NCBI GenBank assembly: GCA_020200195.1
Contig: JAIVJE010000292.1
Coordinates: 9,567-44,545 of the forward strand
DNA length: 34,979 nt
Reading direction: 5' to 3'
Source: Acidobacteriota bacterium
Lineage (GTDB): Bacteria; Acidobacteriota; Vicinamibacteria; Vicinamibacterales; 2-12-FULL-66-21
Part shown: positions 10,245 through 13,893 of the stretch, piece by piece
Position numbering within the stretch: position 1 is the first letter of the stretch
How the letters are laid out: every line of letters starts with the position of its first letter
Translations under genes and position numbers: made by a program
Notes under the pieces: generated by a model
Database searches by the model: none
Seen by the model: only the letters and a program-made list of their open reading frames with translations
Told to the model about the DNA's origin: nothing

Positions 10245-11405
10245 ATGAAGCTCGAGACGTTCGCAATGGAACGGCTGCAGTCGACCTGGGAAAACCGGGT
10301 CGCCTGGAACCTGGCGGAAAGCGGCGTTCATCCATTCCGTCTGGAGGAGCTGGCCGACAGCGCCGAGTCGCGCGCGGCCGTGCTCGCGCAGGAGCTCGGC
10401 TACACGCAGACCAACGGCACGCAGGAGTTGCGTGCAGCGGTGGCCCTCATGTATCCCGGCACAACATCAGACCACGTCGAGATCACCAACGGCGGATCGG
10501 AAGCGAACTGCATCGTGCTCTGGCATCTGATCGAGCCGGAGGACGAAGTCGTCATGATGGCGCCGAATTACATGCAGGTGCGCGGCATCTCGCGTGCGCT
10601 GGGCGCGAGAGTCCAACCCTGGCCGCTCGTCGCTGACGAGGCTGCGCGCCGCTGGCGGCCGGATCTCGACCTCCTTCCGTCGCTCGTCACGGCCCGGACA
10701 AAGGCGATCCTGATTTGCAATCCCAACAACCCAACGGGCGCGCGGCTCACTGAATCGGAACTGACCGAGATCTGCCGCGTCGCGTCGCAGGCCGGTGCAT
10801 GGATCGTGTCCGACGAGATCTATCGCGGCGCGGAGCTTGACGGCATCGAAACCCCCACTGCGTGGGGCCGGTACGAGCGGGTGCTCATCACGAGCGGCCT
10901 GTCGAAAGCCTACGCGCTGCCCGGACTGCGTGTCGGCTGGGTTGTGGGGCCGCCGGGCGTCGTCGAGGCTTTGTGGGGCGTGCACGACTACACGACCATC
11001 GCGCCGGGGGCACTCAGCGATCGCCTCGCGCGTATTGCGCTCGCGCCCGCGCGTCGCGCGCAGATCCTCGCGCGAACACAGGGCATCGTGCGCTCGAATT
11101 ATCCAATCGTCAGACGGTGGGTCGAGAAGCGTGCGCCTCTTTTGTCCGTGATCGCGCCCGAAGCCGGGGCCATCGCGTTCGTGAGGTACCAGTACCCCCT
11201 CAACTCGACGAAGCTCATCGAGCGCCTGCGCGAGCAGCAGAGCGTGCTGGTCGTTCCAGGCGATCACTTCGAGATGGACGGCTATCTGCGCATCGGGTTC
11301 GGGGGCGAACCGTCGCACGTGAGCGGCGCGCTCGATCGTGTTGGCGAGATGCTGGACACACTCGCACCCGGCGCGGCGGCACGAATCGCGGCGGATGCGC
11401 GTTGA
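10245..11405 (+). CDS. PLP-dependent class I/II aminotransferase
   Basis: TNGTQELRAAVALMYPG, ICNPNNPTGARL, ITSGLSKAYALPGLRVGWVVG. Confidence 0.95.
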   Translation: MKLETFAMERLQSTWENRVAWNLAESGVHPFRLEELADSAESRAAVLAQELGYTQTNGTQELRAAVALMYPGTTSDHVEITNGGSEANCIVLWHLIEPEDEVVMMAPNYMQVRGISRALGARVQPWPLVADEAARRWRPDLDLLPSLVTARTKAILICNPNNPTGARLTESELTEICRVASQAGAWIVSDEIYRGAELDGIETPTAWGRYERVLITSGLSKAYALPGLRVGWVVGPPGVVEALWGVHDYTTIAPGALSDRLARIALAPARRAQILARTQGIVRSNYPIVRRWVEKRAPLLSVIAPEAGAIAFVRYQYPLNSTKLIERLREQQSVLVVPGDHFEMDGYLRIGFGGEPSHVSGALDRVGEMLDTLAPGAAARIAADAR

Positions 11406-12483
11406 TCTCGCGCTCATAGGGTTCGGTAATGTCGGGCGGCGGTTCGCCCGGCTCCTCAATGAGCTCCGCCCGCGTGTACTCACTGACTGCGATCTCGAAA
11501 CCCGGGTCGTGGCGATCGCAACCCGGACGCACGGTGCCGCATTTGACGTCGGCGGCATTGATGTGGGCGACGCACTCGTCCGAGTCGAAGGCGGACGGAG
11601 ACTCGCGAGCAGACTGGAGACAGCCGGACAACCGATCGCCGCGTGCGACGTCATCCGAAGGATGCGGCAGAGCGATGCCGCCCTTCGCGTCATGATCGAG
11701 ACGACCACTCTCGACGTCGGGGCCGGACGGCCGGCGATCGACCATGTGACGACCGCCCTGGACTCCGGCTGCCACGTCGTTACGGCCAACAAGGGACCAG
11801 CGGCGTTTGCCTATCGAGCCTTGCGGGATCGCGCGCGGACCGCCGGTCTGTCTTTTCTGTTCGAGGGCGCCGTGATGGACGGCGTCCCGATCTTCAACTT
11901 CGTACGCGAAACGCTCCCAGCGGTGAACATTCTCGGTTTCCGGGGGGTGGTGAACAGCACGACCAACCACATCCTGACTGCGCTGGAGGACGGCGACGAG
12001 TTCGGGCAGGCGCTCGCGCGGATGCAGGCGGATGGCATCGCTGAAGCCGACGCCTCTCTCGACGTGGACGGATGGGATGCTGCCGCGAAGGCCGCGGCGC
12101 TGGCCAACGTGCTCATGGACGCAGGGATCACGCCGCACGCGGTGGACCGGGCGGGGGTCGGCCCGGAGAGTGCAGAACGGGCGCGCGCAGCCAAAGCACG
12201 GAACGAGCGATTGCGGCTCGTCGCCCAGGCCGAGCGGGACACGTCAGGATCCGTCAGCGCCAGCGTTCAGCTCGTCGAGCTACCGGCGCGGGACCTGCTG
12301 GCGTCGCTGCGCGGCACCGCCAACGCGCTCGTGTTCCGGACGGATGTCCTTGGAGAAATCGCGGTGTGTCAGTTGGAAGGCACGCTGACGCAGACCGCGT
12401 ATGCGTTGCTGAGCGATCTGATCACGGTTCGCCGGCGGCATCCACAAGCGCCCGACGCAGCGCCGGTTCGTCGAAACCCTTGA
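11395..12483 (+). CDS. Homoserine dehydrogenase
   Basis: LALIGFGNVGRRFARLL; TANKGPAAFAYRAL; FEGAVMDGVPIFNFVRETLPAVNILGFRGVVNSTTNHILTALE; 11-bp overlap with upstream ORF. Confidence 0.93.
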   Translation: MRVDLALIGFGNVGRRFARLLNELRPRVLTDCDLETRVVAIATRTHGAAFDVGGIDVGDALVRVEGGRRLASRLETAGQPIAACDVIRRMRQSDAALRVMIETTTLDVGAGRPAIDHVTTALDSGCHVVTANKGPAAFAYRALRDRARTAGLSFLFEGAVMDGVPIFNFVRETLPAVNILGFRGVVNSTTNHILTALEDGDEFGQALARMQADGIAEADASLDVDGWDAAAKAAALANVLMDAGITPHAVDRAGVGPESAERARAAKARNERLRLVAQAERDTSGSVSASVQLVELPARDLLASLRGTANALVFRTDVLGEIAVCQLEGTLTQTAYALLSDLITVRRRHPQAPDAAPVRRNP

Positions 12484-12670
12484 TCGCGCGGCCGCCGATG
12501 ACGGTGACTGGTATCGTGCGGAAGCCTAGCGCCAGCAGATCGGTGTACGCCGCATGATCTTCCTCGACGTTGCGTGCCGTGAAGGGATGTCCGTCGCGTG
12601 AAAGTAACTCTTTCACCAGCTCGCAGGCTCGTCAATTCGAGCCGGAAAAGACCACGATCCCGGTAGCCAT
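12422..12670 (-). CDS. Glutaredoxin-like protein, candidate selenoprotein (UxxC; in-frame TGA at 12632-12634)
   Basis: Continuous frame MATGIVVFSGSN-[TGA]-RACELVKELLSRDGHPFTARNVEEDHAAYTDLLALGFRTIPVTVIGGRAIKGFDEPALRRALVDAAGEP; the TGA occupies the first Cys of the Grx CxxC motif; bSECIS-like hairpin follows. Confidence 0.75.
12598..12634 (-). promoter_or_regulatory. Candidate bacterial SECIS element
   Basis: mRNA sense: UGA-N15-GUGAAAG-AGUUA-CUUUCAC; perfect 7-bp stem, 5-nt loop starting 22 nt after UGA, G among first two loop bases. Confidence 0.6.
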
Positions 12671-12681
12671 CCGCTGATTGT

Positions 12682-13893
12682 ATGTCCGCACCGGATTCCG
12701 ATACGACTGCTCCGCTGTCAGGCCTGACGGTCATCGATCTGACGCGCGTGCTGTCGGGTCCCTACTGCACCATGTTGCTGGCAGATATGGGCGCCCGTGT
12801 CATCAAGGTCGAGCAGGCCGGTCGCGGCGATGACACGCGTGCCTGGGGTCCCCCGTTTCAGGGTTTCGAAACGGCGTATTTCCTGAGCATCAACCGCAAC
12901 AAAGAAAGCATCACCCTCGATTTGAAACGCCCGGAAGGCCGCCGGATCCTCGACGGCTTGCTCGATCGCGCCGACGTGTTGGTCGAGAACTTCCGCCCCG
13001 CGACGATGGAGCGACTCGAGTTGGGATACGAAACAGTCCACGCAAGATGGCCGGGCGTCATCTACTGCTCCATCTCCGGATTCGGGCAGACCGGCCCGCG
13101 GCGCGACGAACCTGGATATGACGCCGTCGTCCAGGCAGAGGGCGGATTGATGAGCATCACGGGTGATCCCGACGGGCCGCCGTTCAGGCTCGGCGTGGCA
13201 ATCTCCGACATCGTCGCCGGGATGTTTGCGGCACAGGGCATCCTCCTGGCGGTACTCGCGCGGGGAAAGACAGGCTTGGGACAACGTGTGGACATCGGGA
13301 TGCTCGATTCGACGGTGGCCCTGCTGACGTACCAGGCTGCGATTCATTTCGCTACCGGCATTCCGCCGGTCCGTCTGGGGAACAGGCATCCGACCATCGT
13401 TCCATACGAGACGTTTCAGGCCGCGGACGGCGACATGGTCCTGGCGGTCGGAAACGACGAACAATGGCGCCGGTTCTGTGACGCGGCAGGTCTGGAGGAA
13501 ATTGCGGAGGACCAACGGTTCTCCAACAATGCCGGCAGGGTCGCCCAATACGACCTGCTCCGATCTCTGCTGGCGCCGCGGCTGCGGCAGCGAACGCGCG
13601 CGGAGTGGCGCGCCAGGTTCAACGCCGCCGGCGTACCTTGCGGTGCGGTCCGCGACATCGCGGAGGTGCTCGCGGATCCGCAAGTGCGGGCACGATCCAT
13701 GATCGAGGCGGTCGAGCACGCCGCGCTCGGATCCATTCAGGTATTGGGCCTGCCAGTGAAGTTGTCCGACACCCCAGGACGAGTACGCAGCGCCCCACCG
13801 ACCCTCGGCCAGCACACCGACGAGATTCTGCGGAGGGATCTCGGCCTGTCCGAAAGGGACATCGCCGCGCTGCGCACGTCGGGAATCGTGTAA
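12682..13893 (+). CDS. CaiB/BaiF family CoA-transferase
   Basis: VIDLTRVLSGPYCTMLLADMGARVIKVEQ...GDDTRAWGPPF...NRNKESITLDLK...ENFRP. Confidence 0.96.
   Translation: MSAPDSDTTAPLSGLTVIDLTRVLSGPYCTMLLADMGARVIKVEQAGRGDDTRAWGPPFQGFETAYFLSINRNKESITLDLKRPEGRRILDGLLDRADVLVENFRPATMERLELGYETVHARWPGVIYCSISGFGQTGPRRDEPGYDAVVQAEGGLMSITGDPDGPPFRLGVAISDIVAGMFAAQGILLAVLARGKTGLGQRVDIGMLDSTVALLTYQAAIHFATGIPPVRLGNRHPTIVPYETFQAADGDMVLAVGNDEQWRRFCDAAGLEEIAEDQRFSNNAGRVAQYDLLRSLLAPRLRQRTRAEWRARFNAAGVPCGAVRDIAEVLADPQVRARSMIEAVEHAALGSIQVLGLPVKLSDTPGRVRSAPPTLGQHTDEILRRDLGLSERDIAALRTSGIV

Follow-up and report, generated by a model that had tools for sequence, protein, structure and literature searches.

Selenocysteine in bacterial glutaredoxins

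Glutaredoxins with selenocysteine (Sec) in a UxxC motif are an established family of selenoproteins (PMC13188914, PMC1794560), and the claim of an earlier sequence-only reading of the DNA described here, that Sec-containing glutaredoxins exist in bacteria, is borne out by them. The members from Geobacter sulfurreducens, Moorella and Alkaliphilus metalliredigenes resemble the gene described below in belonging to PF00462 and in the UGA-encoded Sec of their UxxC motif; the published proteins come from a limited number of species, among which the available sections of both papers do not report Acidobacteriota. For this phylum an early survey lists few selenoproteins (PMC1794560). By sequence, the nearest solved protein is cGrx1 of Clostridium (Alkaliphilus) oremlandii (7c10/7c12), which has a glutaredoxin fold and in its native form Sec as the first residue of U-x-x-C; its structure was determined with Cys replacing Sec (PMC7642778). 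The role proposed for cGrx1 is the reduction of a Sec-MsrA; for the gene described here, a partner of this kind is not known. Further small Sec-containing glutaredoxin-like proteins form the UXX-star families NF041212, NF041211, NF041114 and NF047338.

The grxU gene and its recoded codon

The window, i.e., the whole stretch of 34,979 nucleotides that was analysed, contains on its minus strand a gene, here named grxU, that the sequence-only reading had proposed as a candidate selenoprotein gene. The relevant features are the following.

12422 to 12670, minus strand: predicted Sec-containing glutaredoxin-fold gene (grxU), 82 residues, MATGIVVFSGSN-U-RACELVKELLSRDG...ALVDAAGEP
12632 to 12634, minus strand: in-frame TGA, codon 13 (predicted Sec13), first residue of UxxC, conserved throughout the 39 copies found in 38 genomes
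12623 to 12625, minus strand: TGC, Cys16, predicted resolving Cys of U-R-A-C, Cys in 39 of 39 TGA copies
12598 to 12616, minus strand: bSECIS-type hairpin GUGAAAG-AGUUA-CUUUCAC, beginning 15 nt after the UGA, loop at 12609 to 12605 with G second and then U

The reading frame opens with the ATG at 12670, passes through the TGA at 12634 to 12632 and ends at the terminator TGA at 12424 to 12422, with no other in-frame stop before the terminator; the frame given in the sequence-only reading was correct to the base. After MATGIVVFSGSN the text continues U-RACELVKELL..., and the TGA does take the place of the first Cys of a CxxC motif. The full read-through protein scores 42.9 bits with the glutaredoxin profile PF00462, above the Pfam gathering score of 22.9, and the fragment beginning at GTG 12616 scores 27.1 bits by itself; the frame is uninterrupted on both sides of the TGA. 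The internal "stop" almost certainly specifies the active-site Sec of a small redox protein, and grxU is a real gene that is easily misread: the ORF caller, as had been noticed, misses the N-terminus and starts at GTG 12616, the codon with which the hairpin opens.

That ORF callers start there might indicate that the protein itself does, in which case it would be a short fragment lacking the CxxC region and the upstream part would be untranslated. The probability of this is very slight, given that the first β-strand and U-x-x-C show protein-level conservation, their changes falling most often on third codon positions, that start codons occur at matching places in several relatives, and that GTG 12616 is part of the 5' arm of the hairpin. 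According to the structural model, a start at this codon would also cost the fold its first strand and its active site.

Homologs in the order

The window's order, represented by 162 genomes, was searched with a profile, and a match of 85 bits or more was counted as a close homolog. Close homologs of grxU were found in 39 genomes, of which 38 have TGA at exactly the Sec codon (39 copies) and one, G006, does not. Stop-free matches otherwise reached at most 56 bits, and therefore no close Cys form of grxU was seen in the 162 genomes. An earlier protein search among 60 relatives gave matches in 20 genomes, most with one in-frame TGA, and a one-protein contig search matched a single relative, L040, an Acidobacteria MAG that carries the same homolog as G003, a genome of the window's family. 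Homologs at family distance have either Sec or Cys at the position (Cys, for example, in L089 and L092 to L095), such that the Cys/Sec pairing, which the sequence-only reading had named as a check, is present between the TGA copies and the distant members. Conservation on both sides of the TGA is at the protein level, third codon positions being the most variable on either side, and the redox motif of the clade is mostly U-R-A/S-C. A gene tree of 73 columns, which is poorly resolved and served only to see that the Sec copies group, places 40 Sec rows together with an Arg copy in one group (support 100/99).

The Arg copy is that of G006 (L132, C40:36200-36800, minus strand; also L033). It has CGA at the Sec codon and an intact hairpin, and its frame is lost after VTVVG, although the genome possesses selA and selB. 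The altered codon and the loss of the frame further on mark it as a decaying copy.

It might be argued from this decayed relative that grxU is likewise a pseudogene, an ordinary Cys glutaredoxin interrupted by a nonsense mutation, or else that the TGA is a sequencing error, as a single base separates TGC or TGT from TGA and the assembly of the window's own genome is fragmented (G000; 4.0 Mb in 584 contigs, 81.6% complete). The same TGA, however, is shared by 38 genomes, in which the coding frame is preserved before and after it, and no close Cys homolog was found in the 162 genomes of the order. A sequencing error at 12632 to 12634 is ruled out in practice because other genomes share the TGA, and the probability of the whole explanation is close to nil. 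Since the recoded gene and its RNA signal recur in dozens of related Acidobacteriota genomes, the copies form, by their sequences, a new clade of a known selenoprotein type and are not an error.

Other Sec groups were encountered in the phylum. One has the motif U-M-F-C (L124, L125, L090). In G070 (L124) and G073 (L125) it is a second Sec-glutaredoxin paralog alongside the main one, and the loop of its hairpin seemingly measures 4 nt, with the U-A pair of the main clade seemingly replaced by C-G or U-G. In G166 (L090, approximately 1534 to 1610) the UMFC-type homolog contains an extra in-frame TAG just 3' of the hairpin, which reflects either a broken gene or an assembly fault. Another group has U-P-P-C (L096 to L098, L102; family f24) and a Cys sister, L089; inspection by eye suggested that a different hairpin, possibly CCUYUC-GGM-GARAGG, lies at a greater distance from the UGA, with a possible compensatory change.

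The hairpin downstream of the UGA

The bSECIS model (PMC13188914) comprises an upper stem of 4 to 16 bp and an apical loop of 3 to 9 nt with a G in the first two loop positions, the loop lying 16 to 37 nt after the UGA. The grxU hairpin conforms to the model with 7 bp and the 5-nt loop AGUUA 22 nt after the UGA; the perfect stem, the spacer of 15 nt and the distance of the loop that had been described from the sequence are found at 12616 to 12598 as claimed. Folding the RNA, which had also been proposed as a check, gave a stability not beyond chance for the single sequence, with an MFE z-score of 0.33 relative to shuffled sequences. Model-conforming stems of at least 7 bp follow 78 of the 916 TGA triplets in the window (8.5%) if G-U pairs are allowed, and 13 of the 916 if only Watson-Crick pairs are counted. 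Single-sequence folding was therefore dropped as standalone evidence, and the significance of the hairpin derives from its conservation across copies. An Rfam scan of the grxU locus returned nothing relevant.

The hairpins of the 39 TGA copies, which comprise 37 distinct sequences, were compared over 42 columns. All seven stem pairs are intact in every copy. One pair shows compensation of A-U by G-C in two sequences and two other pairs vary on one side only; as there is so little variation in the stem, covariation is thin and amounts to two compensatory cells. The loop occurs as AGUUN, CGUGG or CGUUG, always with G second and U third (39/39). When pairs of copies are compared, third positions differ in about half of the flanking codons vs. 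a fraction of 0.19 of the hairpin codons. Moreover, the Leu codon of the 3' arm is CTT in 37 of 39 copies, vs. 13 of 223 Leu codons in a set of five genes from the window, and the Ser codon of the same arm is TCA in 38 of 39 copies, vs. 13 of 137 Ser codons in those genes. The low rate of third-position change and the fixation of the rare synonyms CTT and TCA mean that protein constraint alone is insufficient to explain the conservation of the hairpin, with the proviso that these hairpin and codon counts are not independent, as the copies are related.

Selenocysteine machinery

The sequence-only reading saw no selA, selB, selC or selD in the window, which agrees with the Pfam results for 20 of its larger ORFs. 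The search of the whole genome that the reading had suggested was successful for three of the four components. G000 contains a tRNA-Sec with a UCA anticodon (58.4 bits), selA (544 bits) and selD (349 bits), whereas selB was not found in this 81.6%-complete assembly, either by profile or with the SelB protein of a relative. Weak partial matches to SelB (34% and 31% identity) were taken to be other GTPases and rejected. The missing selB is most likely an assembly gap, since 116 of the order's 162 genomes have selB above the cut-off, among them G002, G004, G009 and G010 from the window's own family. The selD gene has an in-frame UGA of its own in the motif SSCAGU (L013, C55, minus strand near 2397) and is a second Sec gene in G000.

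Among the TGA carriers, selA is present in 37 of 38 (in some only in part) vs. about 127 of the 162 genomes overall, an association with a Fisher p of 3.5e-4, calculated with no correction for phylogeny or kinship. The sole carrier without selA is G003, the genome of which is 57% complete. Together with the TGA homologs, the tRNA-Sec, selA and selD support the reading of grxU as a candidate selenoprotein gene.

The UGA might instead be read through or reassigned to a residue such as Trp or Cys, and readthrough as such would likewise keep the frame. General reassignment is argued against by grxU itself, which terminates on TGA, and the genome contains tRNA-Sec with its UCA anticodon, selA and a selD that is itself predicted to contain Sec. 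The site, furthermore, is the redox-active position, at which distant homologs have Cys. An amino acid other than Sec at codon 13 is accordingly highly improbable, and decoding as Sec is preferred.

Fold and relationship to known families

The AlphaFold model of the grxU protein (16 rows) has a pLDDT of 90. Its top fold matches in the PDB are 3zij (BC3987), 4fiw and 1h75; the nearest folds according to Foldseek are BC3987 and cGrx1, with a TM of about 0.9 to cGrx1. By sequence, cGrx1 (7c10) is the nearest solved protein (E 5.5e-22). According to the model, the grxU protein has a thioredoxin-like fold with an N-terminal [UC]xxC and a substrate-loop Pro, P54, which is invariant. With cGrx1 it shares a GFD where the GG-x-D-D segment would be, but identity in the fold alignment is approximately 32% and the motif of cGrx1 is C/U-P-H-C in contrast to the mostly U-R-A/S-C of the grxU clade.

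The best NCBIfam profiles for grxU are the NrdH-redoxin (TIGR02194; 43.6 vs. a cut-off of 85.75 bits) and the YruB-type glutaredoxin (TIGR02196; 46.6 vs. 88.55 bits); unlike NrdH and YruB, grxU has Sec at the first motif position. No NCBIfam model reached its cut-off for the proteins scanned. The UXX-star profiles match weakly and membership in these families was rejected on score, all values being far below the curated cut-offs (NF041212, 32.2 vs. 66 bits).

Proposed mechanism and electron donor

In this fold the first residue of the motif carries out a nucleophilic attack and the last achieves resolution. Built on the glutaredoxin/NrdH/YruB fold, the product of grxU would act as a small thiol-disulfide oxidoreductase, with U13 as the nucleophile and C16 as the resolving residue. 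The hairpin downstream would recruit SelB with Sec-tRNA(Sec), enabling the ribosome to decode the UGA at 12634 to 12632 as Sec. The selenolate would then attack an oxidised substrate, Cys16 would resolve the mixed selenenyl-sulfide, and an electron donor would re-reduce the U-C bond. We regard this overall explanation, a Sec oxidoreductase formed by hairpin-directed recoding and acting by such a redox mechanism, as very highly probable. Its starting points, which can be read from the sequences, are the gene, the recoding site and its conservation, the hairpin, and the genes for tRNA-Sec, SelA and SelD; from these, and from the gshB and bshC findings that follow, we infer Sec insertion itself, the redox activity, the donor and the substrate.

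The designation "glutaredoxin-like" in the sequence-only reading holds for the fold and has to be refined otherwise. The glutathione-binding signature of the GGxDD type is absent from grxU: the alignment has a conserved GFD replacing GG-x-D-D, a segment of Grx3. No gene for glutathione synthetase (gshB) exceeded the cut-off in 19 genomes of the order, in a search that covered the gshB route. The bacillithiol synthase BshC was present in 22 of 22 genomes examined, which accords with a published survey of genes in which Acidobacteria were included (PMC6282198). "Glutaredoxin" is therefore probably a name for the fold and not for the electron donor. Judging from the presence and absence of these genes, the donor in this order would probably not be glutathione but either thioredoxin reductase or bacillithiol, and the GFD likewise points to a non-glutathione donor. 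BshC occurs in genomes with or without grxU, and its co-occurrence is thus uninformative with respect to a role as a bacilliredoxin. The more specific proposal that grxU encodes a Sec redoxin serving a bacillithiol-based rather than a glutathione-based system, with a bacilliredoxin- or NrdH-like function carried out by Sec, and that the gene stays strictly Sec in the clade and is lost rather than converted to Cys when Sec is given up, is conceivable but rather unlikely.

Genomic neighbourhood

The gene is flanked by two genes on the opposite strand.

11338 to 12483, plus strand: homoserine dehydrogenase (PF00742), convergent neighbour, its 3' end overlapping the 3' end of grxU by 62 bp
12682 to 13893, plus strand: CoA-transferase family III (PF02515), divergent neighbour, its ATG 11 bp from the ATG of grxU

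An aminotransferase gene precedes the homoserine dehydrogenase gene. The gap of 11 bp (12671 to 12681) implies that the promoters lie within coding sequence or that the CoA-transferase III starts further in. The order homoserine dehydrogenase, grxU, CoA-transferase III is shared by many relatives belonging to several families. This pattern suggests that the gene was inherited vertically from early on and lost many times, and says nothing on a shared function.

Significance

Novelty appears to lie in the grxU clade, in the strictness with which it is kept as Sec in the order, and in its occurrence in bacteria that seemingly cannot make glutathione. With grxU, a well-supported clade of Sec-glutaredoxins is added to the Acidobacteriota. 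The gene is probably truncated or missed in annotation, as the ORF caller starts within the hairpin and no NCBIfam cut-off is reached. With a nearly invariant hairpin and fixed rare codons in 39 copies, the gene offers a clean case from nature on which the bacterial SECIS model can be tested. That a Sec glutaredoxin occurs where glutathione is seemingly not synthesised poses the directly testable question of which electron donor serves it.
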